Shown here: positions 7,617 to 51,668 of the stretch, in pieces | How positions within the stretch are numbered: the stretch's first letter is position 1 | Layout of the letters: each line of letters opens with the position of its first letter | DNA from: Arcobacter sp. | GTDB taxonomy: Bacteria > Campylobacterota > Campylobacteria > Campylobacterales > Arcobacteraceae | Assembly: GCA_002869565.1 (NCBI GenBank) | Contig: PKUJ01000007.1 | Span: forward strand, 1 to 64,000 | Length of the DNA: 64,000 nt | Direction of reading: 5' to 3' | The notes under the pieces: generated by a model | The model's database searches: none | What the model was told of the DNA's origin: nothing | Seen by the model: the letters and a program-made list of their open reading frames with translations, nothing else | Made by a program: the position numbers and the translations under genes

Positions 7617-7931
7617 ATGAATAACGAATTAGTTGAGAGGATTAAATCAAATCCTAAATATCAAGAATTAATTTCAAAAAGATCAAGTTTTTCAATAAAA
7701 CTTGCAATTTTTGTTTTAGTTATGTTTTATGCATATATCTTAACAATTGCATTTGAACCAACACTGCTTGGAACAAAAATTGGTGAGGGTGTTATGACTG
7801 TTGCATTTCCAATCGCGGCTGCAATTATTATTATAAGTTTTCTTACAACATTAATTTATGTAAGAAGAGCGAATAGTGAGTTTGAAGATCTAACAAGCCA
7901 AATTAGAGAAGATGTAAAGGATGCATTATAA
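7617..7931 (+). CDS. DUF485 membrane protein, ActP accessory subunit, copy 1
   Basis: This 104-residue protein has two membrane helices (about 27-47 and 61-82), a charged N-terminus ([20 protein letters not shown]) and a charged C-terminal tail. This is the DUF485 form, YjcH in Escherichia coli, which is encoded just before the acetate permease gene actP. It overlaps actP by 1 nt (TAATG), and the ribosome binding site is AGGAAAAGGA. It is a clear paralogue of the gene at 9892. Confidence 0.93.
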
Positions 7932-9583
7932 TGTTTAAAATTTTAGCACTTATTTCAATTTTTGCTATTGCTGCATTTGCAGCAGGTGACGCTACTTTTG
8001 AAGCAACGAAAAGAGATCTTAACGTTCCAGCAATTGTTATGTTTTTTATTTTTATTGGAGCGACTTTAGGAATTACTTATTGGGCAGCACAAAGAACAAA
8101 ATCTGCAAGTGACTTCTACACAGCAGGTGGAGGAATTACAGGTTTCCAAAATGGTATGGCAATTGCTGGGGATTATATGTCAGCAGCGTCATTCCTTGGG
8201 CTTTCAGGTCTTGTATATTTAAAAGGTTACGATGGGCTTGTCTATGCAGTTGGATTTTTAGTTGGTTGGCCAGTTATTTTATTTTTAATGGCTGAAAAAT
8301 TAAGAAACTTAGGAAAATTTACATTTGCAGATATTGCAGCATTTAGACTTGGCCAAAAAGAGATTAGAATATTAGCAGCATTTGGTTCATTATCAGTTGT
8401 AACTTTATATTTAATTGCTCAAATGGTAGGATCAGGAAAACTTATTCAAGTACTATTTGGATTAGAGTATGAGTATGCTGTAATTCTTGTTGGAGTTATG
8501 ATGATTATTTATGTAACTTTTGGTGGTATGCTTGCAACTACATGGGTTCAAATAATAAAAGCAATTTTATTATTATCAGGTGTTACATTTATGGGCTTTA
8601 TGATTTTAAAACAATTTAATTTTGATTTTACATTACTTGCTACAAAAGCTGTTGAGACTCACAGTTTAGGTCAAGATATTATGGCACCAGGAGGATTTAT
8701 TTCTGATCCAATTTCTGCTATTTCACTTGGACTTGCACTTATGTTAGGAACAGCTGGTTTACCTCATGTTCTAATGAGATTCTTTACTGTTGGAAATGCA
8801 AAAGAAGCTAGAAAATCTGTTGTTTATGCAACTGGTTTTATTGGTTACTTCTACTTAGTAATTGCTGTAATTGGTCTTGGAGCAATTGTTTTCTTAAATT
8901 CTGATGCAAGTGCACAGTATTTTGTTGATGGAAAACTATTTGGTGGAAATAATATGGCTGCAATTCATTTATCTCATGTTGTTGGTGGAGATATTTTCTT
9001 AGGGTTTATTTCAGCTGTTGCATTTGCTACTATTTTAGCAGTTGTTTCAGGATTAACACTAGCAGGAGCTTCTGCAATTTCACATGATATTTATGCAAAT
9101 GTTATTATGAAAGGGAAAGCAGATGAAACAAAAGAAATGGCTGTTTCAAAACGAGCTGTAATAGTAATTGGTGTTGTTGGAGTGATACTAGGTATTGCTT
9201 TTGAACATCAAAATATAGCATTTATGGTAGGACTTGCATTTGCTATTGCAGCATCTGCAAACTTTCCTATTCTATTTTTATCAATTTACTGGTCTAAATT
9301 AACAACTAAAGGTGCATTTATCGGTGGATTTATGGGTCTTGTTACTGCAGTTGTCTTAGTTATATTAGGTCCTGTTGTTTGGGTTTCTGTATTAGGAAAC
9401 GAATCTCCAATATTCCCATATAAACACCCTGCACTTTTTTCAGTAACTGTTGCATTTATTAGTATTTGGTTCTTTTCAATTACTGATAAATCAGAACGTG
9501 CACAAAATGAAATCAAAGCATTTGAAGCTCAAAAAGTTAGAGCAGAAACTGGATTTGGTTCAGATGGAGCAGTTGATCACTAA
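7931..9583 (+). CDS. actP: Cation/acetate symporter ActP, copy 1
   Basis: This 550-residue SSS-family permease imports acetate and related short monocarboxylates with a cation. The N-terminal hydrophobic stretch ([17 protein letters not shown]) resembles a cleavable signal, as in E. coli ActP. Family motifs are [33 protein letters not shown] and [22 protein letters not shown]. It is translationally coupled to the DUF485 gene. It is about 85% identical by eye to the second copy at 10206, so the pair arose by tandem duplication. A hairpin follows the gene. Confidence 0.93.
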
Positions 9584-9891: not shown

Positions 9892-10206
9892 ATGAAGGAC
9901 GAGTTAGTAGAAAGGATTGAAAATAATCCTAAATACCAAGAGCTAGTTTCAAAAAGAAATGCTTTTAGTATTAAATTGGGTGTTTTTGTACTTGTAATGT
10001 TTTATGCTTATATTTTAACAATAGCATTTAACAAAGAAATTTTATCAGCGAAAATTGGTGATGGTCTTACGACTGTGGCATTTCCTATTGCTCTAGCAAT
10101 ATTAGTAATCAGTTTTATCACAACTCTTATTTATGTAAAAAGAGCTAATGGTGAATTTGAAGATTTAACTAATGAAATAAAAAAAGACGTAAAGGATTTA
10201 ATATAA
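9892..10206 (+). CDS. DUF485 membrane protein, ActP accessory subunit, copy 2
   Basis: This 104-residue protein has two membrane helices and is nearly identical in layout to the one at 7617 ([21 protein letters not shown], then [15 protein letters not shown]). It overlaps actP copy 2 by 1 nt (TAATG). The start follows AAAAGGGGAAAAGAT. Its own upstream region differs from that of copy 1 except for the shared GCTAY-N6-GCTAC box, so the two copies may be expressed under different conditions. Confidence 0.93.
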
Positions 10207-11858
10207 TGTTTAAAATATTAATACTTATCACAATTTTTGCAATTAGTGCATTTGCAGCAGGTGATGCAACCTTTGAAGCAGTAAAAAGAGATCTTAATAT
10301 TCCTGCAATTATTATGTTTTTTATTTTTATAGTTGGTACCTTGGGAATCACTTACTGGGCTGCAAGAAAAACTAAATCTGCTAGTGATTTCTATACTGCC
10401 GGTGGGGGAATTACTGGTTTTCAAAATGGTTTAGCTATTGCTGGAGATTATATGTCAGCTGCTGCTTTCTTAGGTGTATCTGGGCTTATATACTTAAAAG
10501 GATATGATGGTGTTATTTATGCTGTGTCTTTTTTAGTTGGTTGGCCAGTTATTTTGTTCTTTATGGCTGAAAAATTAAGAAACTTAGGTAAATTTACATT
10601 TGCAGATATTGCCGCTTATAGACTTGGTCAAAAAGAGATTAGAACTTTGGCTGCCTTTGGTTCATTATCTGTTGTTATTTTATATCTTATTGCACAAATG
10701 GTTGGTGCAGGGAAACTAATTCAAGTTTTATTTGGTATGGAATATGAATATGCTGTTGTTCTTGTTGGTGTAATGATGATTATTTATGTAACTTTTGGTG
10801 GTATGCTTGCAACTACTTGGGTACAAATTATCAAAGCTTGTTTATTGCTAACAGGAGTATCTTTTATGGCTATTATGGTTTTATATCATTTTGGTTTTTC
10901 ATTTGAAGCATTAGCTGTTAAAGCAACTGAAAATCACAAAGCAGGTGAATCAATCTTAGCACCAGGAGGATTTATATCTGATCCTATTTCTGCTATTTCT
11001 TTAGGTATGGCACTTATGTTAGGAACTGCCGGTTTACCACATGTACTTATGAGATTCTTTACAGTTGGGAATGCTAAAGAAGCTAGAAAATCTGTTGTTT
11101 ACGCTACTGGTTTTGTTGGTTACTTTTGGATTATTATTACTATTGTTGGTTTTGGTGCAATTGCATTCTTAAACTCAGCAGATGGTGCGGAATACTTTGT
11201 TGATGGTAAATTATTTGGCGGAAATAATATGGCTTCAATTCACTTATCTCATATGTTAGGTGGGAATGCTTTCTTAGGATTTATTTCAGCTGTTGCATTT
11301 GCTACGATTTTAGCAGTTGTTTCAGGGCTTACACTAGCAGGAGCATCTGCTATTTCACATGATATCTATGCAAATGTAATTTGTAATGGAAATGCTAAAG
11401 AAGAAGACGAAATTAGAGTTTCTAAAATCTTCGTTGTTGTTCTTGGTGTTATTGGTGTTATTTTAGGAATTTCTTTTGAATCACAAAATATTGCTTATAT
11501 GGTAGGACTTGCTTTTGGTATTGCGGCAAGTGCTAACTTCCCTATTTTATTTTTATCTATTTATTGGAAAGGATTAACAACTAGAGGAGCATTCTTAGGT
11601 GGATTTATTGGTCTTATTACAGCTGTTACTTTAGTTATAATTGGGCCAATTGTATGGGTACAAATTTTAGGAAATGCAGAAGCAATCTTCCCATATAAAC
11701 ACCCTGCACTATTCTCAGTAACAATTGCTTTTGTTGGAATTTGGTTTTTCTCTAAAACTGATAATTCACAAAGAGGAAAAAATGAAAAAGAGATGTTTCG
11801 AGCTCAAAATGTAAGAGCAAATACAGGTATTGGCTCAGCTGGTGCAATTGACCACTAG
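10206..11858 (+). CDS. actP: Cation/acetate symporter ActP, copy 2
   Basis: This 550-residue SSS-family acetate permease is the tandem paralogue of the gene at 7931 and has the same length. It has an N-terminal signal-like helix ([17 protein letters not shown]), the [14 protein letters not shown] motif and [16 protein letters not shown]. Most differences are conservative and lie in the loops and the C-terminal third, for example [13 protein letters not shown] against [13 protein letters not shown]. This suggests two working transporters, perhaps with different affinity or substrate range, rather than a decaying copy. A terminator follows. Confidence 0.93.
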
Positions 11859-22346: not shown

Positions 22347-22832
22347 TTATTCAGCAACTTCGGCTTGTGCTTCCGTTTGTTGTGCTTCTACAGCTTTAAC
22401 TTCTGCAACAATTTGTGTTAAGGCAATTAACCCTAAATGATAACCAAATGGTCCAAAACCAGTGATAACACCAGTAGATGATCCGGCTGTAATTGATTTT
22501 TGTCTAAACTCTTCTCTTTTATAAATATTCGAGATATGTACTTCAATTGTAGGTAAATTTACTGCTGACAAAGCATCTTTGATTGCAATTGATGTATGAG
22601 AAAATGCTGCTGGGTTAATTAAAATACCATCAACTGTACCTAAACACTCTTGAATTCTATCAACAAGTTCACCTTCTAAATTAGATTGAAAAAACTCTAG
22701 TTCAACACCATTTTGAGAAGCTGAACCTTTCATTTGTTCATGAATTTGATCTAAACTCATTGGACCGTAAATATGCTGTTCTCTAATACCTAACATATTT
22801 AAGTTTGGACCTTGGATTACTGCTATTTTCAT
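22347..22832 (-). CDS. aroQ: 3-dehydroquinate dehydratase, type II
   Basis: This enzyme converts 3-dehydroquinate to 3-dehydroshikimate in the shikimate pathway. It has 161 residues and starts with the class signature [14 protein letters not shown]. Also present are the active-site [23 protein letters not shown] with the catalytic His region, [15 protein letters not shown]-like residues, and [11 protein letters not shown]. The C-terminus is extended by a short Ala/Glu-rich tail. Its ribosome binding site sits in the 3' arm of a perfect 12-bp hairpin, described separately. Confidence 0.96.
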
Positions 22833-22839
22833 ATTATTT

Positions 22840-22925
22840 TCCTTTTAAATAGTCCCTATTTAAAAGGGACTTTTGTGTTTTATGTCTACTTTTTTACAGT
22901 AGGTGTGAAACCTACTTAAAAGTAG
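22840..22925 (-). promoter_or_regulatory. Two-hairpin leader of aroQ with enclosed ribosome binding site
   Basis: Read on the minus strand, hairpin 1 (22925-22886) pairs CTACTTTT with AAAAGTAG and AGTAGG with CCTACT. Hairpin 2 (22866-22840) pairs CCTTTTAAATAG with CTATTTAAAAGG around GGA. Its 3' arm contains AAAAGGA, the aroQ ribosome binding site. GTCCC before hairpin 2 could instead pair with GGGAC in its loop region. The hisA leader has the same order and related sequence. Confidence 0.6.
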
Positions 22926-23028
22926 CAAAATTCTAAAGAGAACAATTAATTGTTCTTTTGTATAAATTTTCGCTAAGATTATATTGAAATTTTAGTTAAT
23001 ACTAAATCAAATCAATTAAAGAGAAATT

Positions 23029-32948: not shown

Positions 32949-33061
32949 GGCAAACTCGTTTGCCACTTTAGGATTTACTTCTTTAAGGATTTTTTACAAA
33001 TTCTGTAAAAAGAAGTCATTAAATAAAAGGTCCCTTTTCAAAATGGGATATTTTAAAAGGA
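32949..33061 (+). promoter_or_regulatory. Structured leader of hisA with enclosed ribosome binding site
   Basis: After a short hairpin (32949-32964), hairpin 1 (32977-33016) pairs ACTTCTTT with AAAGAAGT and TTACA with TGTAA. Hairpin 2 (33033-33060) pairs CCTTTT with AAAAGG and AAAAT with ATTTT around GGGAT. Its 3' arm is the AAAAGGAG ribosome binding site. CTGTAAAAA and GTCCCTTTT occur at matching places in the aroQ leader. Confidence 0.6.
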
Positions 33062-33068
33062 GAAAAAT

Positions 33069-33776
33069 ATGGATATATTACCTGCAATTGATTTAAAAGA
33101 TGGAAAAGCTGTAAGACTAAGTAAAGGTCTTATGGAGAGTGCAAAAATCTATTCAGATGAACCTTGGCAAGTTGCAAAAAGATTTGAAGAACTAGGTTCA
33201 AAATGGCTTCATATAGTTGATTTAAATGGTGCATTCGCAGGAGAACCTGCTAACTTAGAACAAATTAGAAAGATTAGAGAAAACTGTAATCTCAAAATTG
33301 AACTTGGTGGTGGTATTAGAGACGAAGAGACTATCAAAATGTATATGGAACTTGGAGTTGATAGACTTATTTTAGGAAGTATCGCTGTAAAAGACCCTCA
33401 GTTTGTAAAAGACATGGCATCAAAATATCCAATTGCTGTTGGAATTGATGCTATGAATGGAATGGTAGCAGTAGAAGGTTGGGCAGAAGTATCTACTATG
33501 GAAGCTACAACTTTAGCTAAAGAATTTGCAAATGCAGGAGTACAAGCTATTATCTGTACAGATATTTCAAAAGATGGAATGCTTTGTGGTGTAAATGTTG
33601 AATTTACAGAATCAATTGCTTTAGCATCTGGAGTTGATACTATTGCTTCTGGTGGAGTAAAAGATATTAATGATATTACTAATTGTAAAGAAAATGGAAA
33701 GATCGCGGGTGTTATCGTTGGAAAAGCTTTCTATGAAGGAACATTAGACTTAGAAGAAGGTTTCAAAGCACTTTAA
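33069..33776 (+). CDS. hisA: Phosphoribosylformimino-5-aminoimidazole carboxamide ribotide isomerase
   Basis: This isomerase catalyses the fourth step of histidine synthesis. It has 235 residues in a half-barrel duplicated TIM fold: [19 protein letters not shown] with the first catalytic Asp, [14 protein letters not shown], the second catalytic Asp in [12 protein letters not shown], and [11 protein letters not shown]. It is preceded by the two-hairpin leader. A small membrane protein gene starts 1 nt after its stop. Confidence 0.96.
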
Positions 33777-40381: not shown

Positions 40382-41935
40382 TTAAACCTTTGGCTTCATA
40401 TTTAAAAGATCTATTTTAAGTTCTGTAATATCATCAGCATAACCAATAATAATAAAAATATCTTTTTCACTTATAACATAAGCTTGATTTACTGGATTAA
40501 ATATAAATTTTTTTTCTTTATTTACAATACCAATTAAAGTTAAATTATATTTATTAAAATCAATTATATCTAAAGAATACCCTATAAAACTTGAATTTTC
40601 AAGGACTTCTACTTCATCAACATTTGCTCCAATATCATCATTTAATAATATTTCATCTATTGCTTCAAAAGCAACAGGTTGTCCAACATATTCAGTTGCA
40701 ACATAAGAAGTAATGTCATTCGCAGAGATAATATGATCTGCCCCTGCAATTTTTAATTTTGGTTTAGAATGTACATTATTAACTCTTGAAATTATATTAA
40801 TAGTTGTATCTAAAGTTCTAGCACTTAAGATAATTGATAAATTTACAGCATCATTACTTGTTAACGCAATAACAGTAGTTGCCCCATCTCCTACACCCAC
40901 ATTTTTTAAAACATCAATATTTGTAGCATCTGCTTTGAGACATAAATAAGCATTTTTTCTAGCTTCTAAAACATTTTCATTGTCAATATCAAGTATTACA
41001 AATTTAGTTTTTAACTTTACCAATTGTTCTGCTAAAATTTTGCCCATAATTCCATATCCACAAAGAACAATAAAATTAGTCATTTTAGATACTTCTGACT
41101 CTACTCTATTTTCTTTGATAACTTGCATCCTATCACTAAGCCCAGTCGTAACTATAGATGTTCCAAATGCAATGACTAAAAATCCACTAATTGTCAAAAC
41201 TAAAGTGACAGCTTTTCCTTCCATTGTCATTGGTGTTATGTCTCCATACCCAACGGTTGAAAGGGTTATAATTGACCAATAAATGGCATCTAGAAAACTT
41301 GTCACTTTGTCATTTATCCCTGCACCTTCATATATATACATAATAGTTGAAGAAAAAAATACAACCATAACATACATCATAGAAAGGGTTAAAAATTCAA
41401 ATTTTCTCTCTTTAAAAATTTCACCAAATTGTTTAACTGAACTTGTGTATCTTAGTATTTTAAATAGTCTAAATAAAAGAAAAATTCTAAGAACTCTAAG
41501 TGGCCTATAATAAGGTAATATGGCAAGTAAATCTATAATTGACATAGGGGAAAATAAAAAATCAAGTTTTTGAGTAATAGCTTTTTTTAATGATTGTACT
41601 AAAGAGTATTTTTTTTCTGTGAGATTAGCTCTTTCAAAATCTTCAATAATAACATTATGAACATCTGAACAAACCCAAAACCTGCCTAGCCATTCTATTA
41701 TAAAAATCAATATAGCTATTAATTCAAACTCATCAAATATATGCTGTTTTTGGTGATTAACTTCAAAAATAAGTATTCCAATAGTACTTAATACTAAAAA
41801 TATCATGAAAATATCAAAATATTTTTTGTATTTAAAACTATTATCTTCTAAAATTGAATAAGTAAAATATTTAATATTTCTATATATTCTTGAAGATTCA
41901 ATTTTATATGATAAAGATACTACTATATTATTCAT
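40382..41935 (-). CDS. Voltage-sensor-type potassium channel with RCK domains
   Basis: This 517-residue membrane channel has several N-terminal helices (about 40-260) including an Arg-rich S4-like segment (YRPLRVLRIFLLFRLFKILRY). The selectivity filter TVGYGD lies in STVGYGDITPMTMEG. The cytoplasmic half has a TrkA-N Rossmann domain (VLCGYGIMGKILAEQL) and TrkA-C. The channel lets K+ through and is gated by the RCK part. It lies downstream of leuA but is separated from it by a terminator. Confidence 0.92.
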   Translation of the reverse strand: MNNIVVSLSYKIESSRIYRNIKYFTYSILEDNSFKYKKYFDIFMIFLVLSTIGILIFEVNHQKQHIFDEFELIAILIFIIEWLGRFWVCSDVHNVIIEDFERANLTEKKYSLVQSLKKAITQKLDFLFSPMSIIDLLAILPYYRPLRVLRIFLLFRLFKILRYTSSVKQFGEIFKERKFEFLTLSMMYVMVVFFSSTIMYIYEGAGINDKVTSFLDAIYWSIITLSTVGYGDITPMTMEGKAVTLVLTISGFLVIAFGTSIVTTGLSDRMQVIKENRVESEVSKMTNFIVLCGYGIMGKILAEQLVKLKTKFVILDIDNENVLEARKNAYLCLKADATNIDVLKNVGVGDGATTVIALTSNDAVNLSIILSARTLDTTINIISRVNNVHSKPKLKIAGADHIISANDITSYVATEYVGQPVAFEAIDEILLNDDIGANVDEVEVLENSSFIGYSLDIIDFNKYNLTLIGIVNKEKKFIFNPVNQAYVISEKDIFIIIGYADDITELKIDLLNMKPKV

Positions 41936-41977: not shown

Positions 41978-43531
41978 TTATATTTGATGTTCTTGTCTTT
42001 TTGATAATCTCTCCTTTTGAGAAAGATAAGAGTTTAAAGCACTTAAATATGCTTTTGCCGTTGCTAACATTGTATCAATACTTAAACCATGACCTACAAA
42101 AGCAGGAGATTCATCATCAAAAGCAACTCTAGTTGTTACTTTAGCTAGAGCATCTTTACCTTCAGTTACTGAAGTAACTTTATAATCTTTTAACTCACCG
42201 TTATAACCAGTAAGTCTATCAATAGTTTTAAAGATTGCATCCATTGTACCATCACCAATTGCTGCATCGCTCATTATATGATCTTCAAATTTAATAGATA
42301 CAGCAGCTGTTGGAACACCATTTGAACAGTCTGAAATTTGTAATCCTACTAATTCATATGTTTTGTCTTGATTTAAAGATTCATCAGTAATTAACATTCT
42401 AATATCATCATCAGTAACATCTTTTTTCTTATCAGCTAAGATTTTAAATCTATCAAATGCAGCATTTAATTCTTCATCAGAAACTTTATCAAAACCTAAA
42501 TGTTCAATTTTATCTCTAAATGCAGCACGTCCAGAATGTTTACCTAAAATAAGTGTTGAATCTTTAAATACACCAACATCCTCGGGCTTCATAATTTCAT
42601 ATGTTTCTTGATGTTTTAAAACACCATCTTGATGAATTCCACTTTCATGAGAAAATGCATTTTTTCCAACAATTGATTTATTTTGTTGTGGTTCAACGCC
42701 AGTAACAGTTGCAACTAATCTAGAAGTTGGGTAAATTTCAGCTGTATTTATACCTGTATATAAATCACCAAAAGCATCACGTCTTGTTTTAATAGCCATT
42801 ACAGCTTCTTCTAAAGCAGAATTTCCAGCTCTTTCACCTAAACCATTGATTGTAACTTCAATTTGTCTTGCACCATTCATAACTGCTGCTAAAGTATTTG
42901 CAGTTGATAATCCTAAGTCATTATGATTATGAACAGAAATAATAGCTCTATCTCCTGCAAAATCTGATAATTCTTTAACCATTGCACCTAATTCGTGAGG
43001 TAATCTATATCCTACAGTATCAGGTAAGTTAATCGTTGAAGCACCTGCATTAATAACTGCATCCATAACTTCTTTCATAAAAGGAATTTCAGATCTTCCT
43101 GCATCCTCTAAAGAAAATTCTACATCATCAACAAATGTCCTTGCATATTCTACTGCATGAATTGCCCTTTTAATAACTTCTTCTTCACTCATTTTTAATT
43201 TATATTTCATATGAATTGGAGAAGTAGCAATAAATGTATGAATTCTATGTAATGGTGCTTTACAAACTGCTAATCCAGATTGCTTAATATCATTATCAAT
43301 TGCTCTACTTAAAGAACAAATTGATGAATTTTTTACTTGTTCTGCAATTCTACTAACTGCATCAAAATCACCTGGTGATGCCGCTGCAAATCCAGCTTCA
43401 ATAACATCTACACCTAATTTTTCTAATTGTAATGCAATTTTAATTTTTTCTTCAGTGTTCATTGAACAACCAGGAGATTGTTCTCCATCTCTTAATGTTG
43501 TATCAAATACTATAATTCTATTTTTATCCAT
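41978..43531 (-). CDS. leuA: 2-isopropylmalate synthase
   Basis: This first enzyme of leucine synthesis condenses acetyl-CoA with 2-ketoisovalerate. It has 517 residues with the DmpG/HMGL core: [32 protein letters not shown] with the metal ligands, and [15 protein letters not shown]. The C-terminal LeuA allosteric domain for leucine feedback spans about 370-500. It stands behind its own consensus promoter and a leader peptide rich in leucine. A terminator follows. Confidence 0.96.
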
Positions 43532-51631: not shown

Positions 51632-51668
51632 TTCCTTTTAAATTGGTCCCCAATTTAAAAGGACCTAT
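51632..51668 (-). promoter_or_regulatory. Hairpin enclosing the accD ribosome binding site
   Basis: On the minus strand CCTTTTAAATTGG pairs perfectly with CCAATTTAAAAGG around GGA, covering 51662-51634. The 3' arm continues into AAGGAAG, the accD ribosome binding site. GGTCC in the 5' part can alternatively pair with GGACC in the loop region. The sequence is nearly the same as hairpin 2 of aroQ. Confidence 0.62.

Follow-up and report, generated by a model that had tools for sequence, protein, structure and literature searches.

The window analyzed here is a stretch of 64,000 nucleotides from Arcobacter sp. contig PKUJ01000007.1. It carries aroQ on the minus strand, and the leader of this gene folds into three hairpins, hp1 to hp3, with better folding than shuffled sequences (z -5.1). 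Read along the minus strand, the leader has the order GAACAATTAATTGTTC-TCTTTAGAATTTTG-CTACTTTT...AAAAGTAG-(spacer)-GTCCCTTTTAAATAGGGACTATTTAAAAGGA-AAATAATATG. Perfect hairpins with arms of 12 or more and loops of 3-8 are frequent in the window, 10 compared to 0-1 in resampled sequence. The features of the aroQ leader, and of the hisA and accD leaders discussed below, are collected in Table 1.

Table 1. Features of the aroQ, hisA and accD loci in the window. SD, Shine-Dalgarno sequence; R1, covariance model of the element.
Feature	Position	Strand	Basis
aroQ, type II 3-dehydroquinate dehydratase, gene behind the leader	22347..22832	-	ORF; NCBIfam TIGR01088 above cut-off
TATAAT, probable -10 box of aroQ	22978..22983	-	Sequence and comparison of orthologs; putative promoter function
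hp1, AGAACAA-UUAA-UUGUUCU, directly 5' of the box	22939..22956	-	Folds; compensatory changes; ungapped test
Single-stranded conserved box CUUUAGAAUUU (family form CUUUAG[GA]NUUU)	22928..22938	-	
hp2, outer stem CUACUUUU/AAAAGUAG, inner stem AGUAGGU/ACCUACU	22886..22925	-	Folds; compensatory changes
hp3 fold A, GUCCC (22870-22866) with GGGAC (22856-22852), SD left free	22852..22870	-	
hp3 fold B, perfect 12-bp stem CCUUUUAAAUAG/CUAUUUAAAAGG, SD hidden	22841..22867	-	
SD of aroQ, AAAAGGA	22840..22846	-	Sequence; element-free relatives use the homologous AAAAGGA as SD
hisA leader, second copy	32949..33062	+	R1 match, E 2.7e-10; empty orthologs
hisA leader, hp1	32949..32964	+	
hisA leader, box	32966..32976	+	
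hisA leader, hp2	32977..33016	+	
hisA leader, hp3	33030..33060	+	
hisA leader, SD	33055..33062	+	
hisA	33069..33776	+	NCBIfam TIGR00007 above cut-off
accD leader, hp3-only version	51632..51665	-	Fold A GGUCC/GGACC; fold B CCUUUUAAAUUGG/CCAAUUUAAAAGG

The long stem of hp3 in aroQ pairs CCTTTTAAATAG with CTATTTAAAAGG around the loop GGA. The initial annotation described a two-hairpin leader, with a perfect 12-bp stem containing AAAAGGA and a second long hairpin upstream. Both hairpins are present, the upstream one as hp2. The stem is indeed perfect and encloses AAAAGG, but the last A (22840) is unpaired. The count of two was too low, as hp1 and the CUUUAG box (22928-22956) had been overlooked. 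The annotation also proposed an alternative fold in which GTCCC pairs with GGGAC, and this pairing is borne out. It shares CC with the SD stem, and the two folds are therefore mutually exclusive.

To find related leaders, a covariance model, R1, was trained on the aroQ, nifU, ppiC and hemE leaders of this genome, after manual removal of a ~22-nt insert from the hemE leader. The model spans hp1, the box, hp2 and the start of hp3. Paralogous leaders had already been found by blastn of the aroQ leader against its own genome, and R1 located 19 copies there at E below 1e-4. Strong matches in the window are limited to the aroQ leader (E 2.8e-18), which is in the training set, and the hisA leader, which is outside it. 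A likeness between these two leaders had been noted from their order of elements and from the shared blocks CTGTAAAAA and GTCCCTTTT. The structural likeness is confirmed by the R1 match of hisA, whereas the blocks occur at chance frequency as words; comparing the two leaders at the word level yielded common words only at chance. In hisA, the TAA stop of the preceding ORF is immediately followed by hp1. The third leader precedes a gene that we take to be accD from its N-terminal sequence.

The aroQ leader represents an uncatalogued folded RNA element of ~110 bases that is scattered across the Arcobacter family. A covariance search across Arcobacter genomes had been suggested in the initial annotation; run with a different training set, it recovered the element family. 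Copies matching R1 are found in all 15 genomes of the same genus and in 74 of the 104 Arcobacteraceae genomes (15 of 20 genera). In a class-wide sample of 397 genomes, 35 contain matches at E up to 1e-4, and 34 of these are Arcobacteraceae. Matches outside the family are few and diverged. The lone out-of-family genome (G404) has its copy immediately before 23S rRNA, within the 16S-23S spacer. When selected genomes were searched with higher sensitivity, seven diverged copies turned up in a second genus of the G404 family (G124). These are intergenic repeats (L232-L239) that contain a GC-rich hp1, a CTTTAG box and hp2, with neither an SD hairpin nor a following start codon. Named records with the motif are assemblies of Arcobacteraceae, Campylobacteraceae and Campylobacterales, and one contig labeled Helicobacter pylori. 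In that contig (CAMCYD010000017.1, strain PMSS1; L286) a typical Arcobacter-type element precedes a thioredoxin-like gene, and mislabeling or contamination is possible.

Known families did not account for the element. A search of the whole window against Rfam release 15 returned only tRNA at the gathering cut-offs, the best hit of the aroQ leader (E 0.35) was far below them, and no element matched a family at 15 further loci. The element had no match in the phage or plasmid search, which speaks against carriage by either; 18 viral contigs matched a short pattern and 0 matched the covariance model. The motif survey of Arcobacter sp. L reports novel intergenic motifs that are mostly Arcobacter-only and unnamed (Stav et al. 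2019; PMC6429828). These come from the same bacterial group as the element, and a possible overlap with one of them would be a partial earlier sighting. In the literature searched we found no description of an Arcobacter leader repeat and no SD-targeted mobile element of this kind.

The structure of the core, hp1-box-hp2, is supported by extensive compensatory changes. In the alignment fitted to the model, 97.9% of the hp1 and hp2 cells are paired compared to 69.5% in shuffles, and 642 cells contain double changes compared to 198. The signal is lost when the partners are slid. Absence of compensatory changes in relatives had been named beforehand as a result that would refute the annotated RNA control. 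They are present in 19 of the 22 hp1/hp2 pairs (hp1, 7/7; hp2 outer stem, 5/8; hp2 inner stem, 7/7). Because an alignment fitted to a model favors its own structure, hp1 was retested ungapped, with the sequences anchored on CTTTAG alone. Its cells are 93.7% paired compared to 65% with arms swapped between copies, and 42 different 5' arms are represented. UUU in the box, which was not selected for, is present at 99-100%, and CUUUAG itself is fixed by the anchor used. G-U exceeds A-C in hp1 and hp2 (44:14), suggesting that the sense RNA is under selection. The element also exists in a long form, with two extra small hairpins between the box and hp2. A second small repeat, TTCATAGCGTAGTCTTGTGRCGAACGAAGTGAAGRCAAAA, about 45 nt long, is inserted in element hairpins at four loci before three different genes (L023, L117 and L122 in the hp3 loop; L052 in hp2).

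In hp3, four segments follow one another with no spacers, in the order X (GUCCC), Y (UUUUAAAUU), X' (GGGAC) and Y' (AAUUUAAAAGG). All five fold A pairs are kept in 104 of the 119 scored copies, including those with UUCCC/GGGAA and GUUCC/GGAAC. Fold B was scored in the 45 sequences (36 gene clusters) with the most common spacing. Its cells are 92% paired compared to 76% in shuffles, with 66 double changes compared to 24. About 10% of its cells are mismatched, and an excess of G-U was looked for in fold B and is absent. Evolution has thus kept two exclusive folds, one hiding and one freeing the SD, as in translational riboswitches, and the annotated shared cis-acting RNA with two such folds is substantiated by a family in which compensatory changes preserve the pairing.

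The two folds are also close in computed energy. For isolated hairpins of copies with a full A stem, as distinct from transcribed and translated mRNA, the median difference is -0.4 kcal/mol, and 46 of 97 lie within 2 kcal/mol. Across 61 gene families the gap between A and B is smaller than after permutation (median 1.7 compared to 2.9, p 0.0015). The energies of A and B correlate over these families (rho 0.61); the restriction to full A stems and the few nucleotides common to both folds may build in part of this correlation, which is therefore supportive and not proof.

The element is placed precisely with respect to genes. A start codon lies just downstream in 127 of the 133 copies examined, an SD is present in 126 of those 127, and the R1 match typically ends 20-41 nt from the start codon. 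The copies are in the sense orientation. Of the six copies with no ORF start, three lie inside tandem arrays, two precede genes that contain an in-frame TGA, and one is a short form. ArsC-like frames just 3' of the element at two loci (L066 in G004 and L106 in G002) have TGA in place of the Cys of relatives (KTCxSV to KT-TGA-xSV), and this TGA probably encodes selenocysteine. Further genes behind the element are presumably nifU, sufC, hemE, glnB, cysK, folA and ilvD, as recognized by sequence. In 86 of the 127 copies a frame on the same strand lies within 70 nt upstream, at a median gap of 10 nt.

Comparison of orthologous leaders revealed frequent differences between close relatives. For aroQ, the element is found in 3 of 15 genomes (G000, G009 and G011), and the other 12 have the same promoter and SD with the element absent, e.g. 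TATAATCTTACCCAAAATTTATAAAAGGAATATAATATG. The stretch TATAATCTTA, with TATAAT, is also located 5' of aroQ in most of the element-free relatives. For hisA, 3 of 16 genomes contain it (G000, G003 and G008), and it is missing from close relatives such as G013. Empty aroQ and hisA sites are clean. On a species tree from four concatenated proteins, aroQ and hisA each need three changes, hpcH six and sufC five, which argues against an ancestral regulon of single origin for aroQ and hisA. Losses still occur: sufC scars are retained in G012 and G015, and at rpsB, where five genomes have hp1-box-hp2 between the gene's own conserved leader and its SD, G014 retains hp2 alone and most of the other leaders read are empty. 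The conserved rpsB leader, CACATGTGTCAATCCTGG...GGGRCACAGAGGCTAAACCC, is found across the order (L310-L339) and is probably an S2 autoregulatory leader.

Since orthologs in close relatives are often element-free, the element is dispersed and subject to gain and loss, and does not form a fixed riboswitch regulon. Consistent with the annotated dispersed repeat that carries its own ribosome binding site, multiple scattered copies and element-free orthologous sites are both observed. The suggested control of biosynthetic genes as a regulon did not survive: the genes behind the element fall into 78 unrelated protein clusters with no coherent target pathway, and the same genes lack it in close relatives. 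No excess of target-site duplication was detected, the longest match between left and right flanks being 5.37 compared to 5.34 in shuffled pairs; one locus (L227) is a striking duplication-like case. No mobile-element carrier was seen in the flanks read. Tandem copies are on record, which suggests slippage or recombination between SD-like ends. One Arcobacteraceae isolate, STC_79, has arrays of elements and leftover hp3 pieces before several genes (L282, L289), with two identical units. An hp3-like piece, GGTCCCTTTAAAAATGNAAATTTTTAAAGGAG, is located in the 23S leader, in the last about 60 nt before 23S rRNA, of two related genomes (L273 in G010, L275 in G014) and is absent from G001 and G006.

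On balance we favor, with a little more than even confidence, a leader element dispersed in Arcobacteraceae that has been repeatedly gained and lost and that in most copies holds the SD in a two-state translational switch. This account builds on what comparison of the sequences establishes directly, namely that the family exists, that it occupies leaders, that hp1 and hp2 are structured as sense RNA, that copies are gained and lost, and that both folds are conserved. The element, laid out as hp1, CUUUAG box, hp2, A/U spacer and hp3 with the SD, would act in sense before unrelated genes. Opening of the SD in fold A and its hiding in fold B (CCUUUUAAAUU:AAUUUAAAAGG) follow directly from the geometry. 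Translation would start from fold A. The X-Y-X'-Y' order with no spacers suggests that A forms first during transcription and that B can replace it by strand displacement. We infer that these folds govern translation in vivo, and the balance between them would set, or let another factor set, translation of the gene carrying the element. The core may bias the switch, as core-only (rpsB) and hp3-only (accD) leaders exist. The SD switch is only part of the function, as hp3 is missing from the rpsB copies of five genomes and from one other copy of this genome. More tentatively, a regulatory RNA may be spreading by landing time and again on the SDs of unrelated genes, with one common factor reading the hp1-CUUUAG-hp2 core and a two-state switch at each gene.

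The strongest competitor, although rather unlikely, is a selfish or neutral repeat that settles in A-rich leaders near SDs with little harm and no regulation, its hairpins serving its own spread or keeping the SD usable. The unrelated genes, element-free relatives, scars and partial deletions, tandem copies, pieces in rRNA spacers and intergenic relatives in another family would all be expected of it. It does not readily explain the strict sense orientation immediately before start codons, the G-U bias of the sense strand, or the conservation of both hp3 folds at matched energies, and target-site duplication above background, a carrier and phage or plasmid matches, which would favor it, were not found. 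The same separability of core and hp3, together with the invariant, unpaired box that separates two covarying hairpins, could instead indicate a true sensor domain for a protein or metabolite, with hp3 as its expression platform and the copies as one coordinated regulon. We consider this improbable, given a heterogeneous and fast-changing gene set, few conserved unpaired bases for an aptamer and no Rfam match.

In rrn leaders boxB precedes boxA, i.e. a hairpin precedes the box, and the element has the same order and a CUUUA core that resembles boxA. The diverged copy of G404 has CUUUAAC just before 23S rRNA, and the suhB leader, with boxA next to the SD and an adjacent hairpin, is a precedent (PMC5725501). 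A role as an rRNA-type antitermination (nut/boxA) site, recruiting Nus factors and shielding poorly translated leaders from Rho, is nevertheless very unlikely: rrn leaders of the group read (A/G/T)UCUUUAA(A/C)A compared to CUUUAG[GA]NUUU in the element, whose sixth position is G in almost every copy and which thus differs from the organisms' own boxA after CUUUA. The element also contains extra covarying hairpins and the SD switch, and the resemblance is a lead only. The upstream frames that closely precede most copies would fit punctuation for RNA processing or stability between operon genes, e.g. with hp2 as an RNase III site flanked by protecting hairpins. This is a distant prospect, as it leaves the two-fold SD hairpin unexplained, as well as copies, such as that of aroQ, that have a promoter of their own. 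Least plausible is an RNA thermometer, in which the A/U-rich stem holding the SD melts on warming. The computed difference between A and B is stable at 10, 20 and 37 °C (median -0.3 to -0.4 kcal/mol), which speaks against it, and the genes are housekeeping.

Small dispersed intergenic repeats with RNA structure include ERIC, BOX, RUP and NEMIS/Correia. They resemble the element in size (about 100-150 bp), in many copies per genome, in patchy presence between relatives, and in being folded and transcribed within UTRs. Unlike them, the element is strictly sense and directly before start codons, and it puts the SD in a conserved two-state hairpin, with no target-site duplication detected and no Rfam match. 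Translational riboswitches and protein-bound leaders share with it an upstream domain and a platform with two exclusive SD folds; the element differs in lacking pathway coherence, in quick turnover between orthologs and in the occasional absence of platform or core. A riboswitch-like leader normally belongs permanently to its gene. Here, one species carries a strongly conserved two-state SD RNA at a gene whose counterparts in relatives cleanly lack it. Empty sites, scars and tandem copies make the spread of a post-transcriptional control element directly testable, as is the effect of carrying it on expression of housekeeping genes. If the spreading regulatory RNA is real, a post-transcriptional regulon would be built and dismantled by gain and loss of the element. 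Should a common factor bind the core, the genes under control would be rewritten from species to species.

Elsewhere in the window, adjacent ORF pairs of equal lengths are located at 7617-9583 and 9892-11858 (104+550 aa twice), and adjacent ORFs of equal length at 40382-41935 and 41978-43531 (517 aa twice). By their lengths and arrangement, these look like tandem gene duplications.
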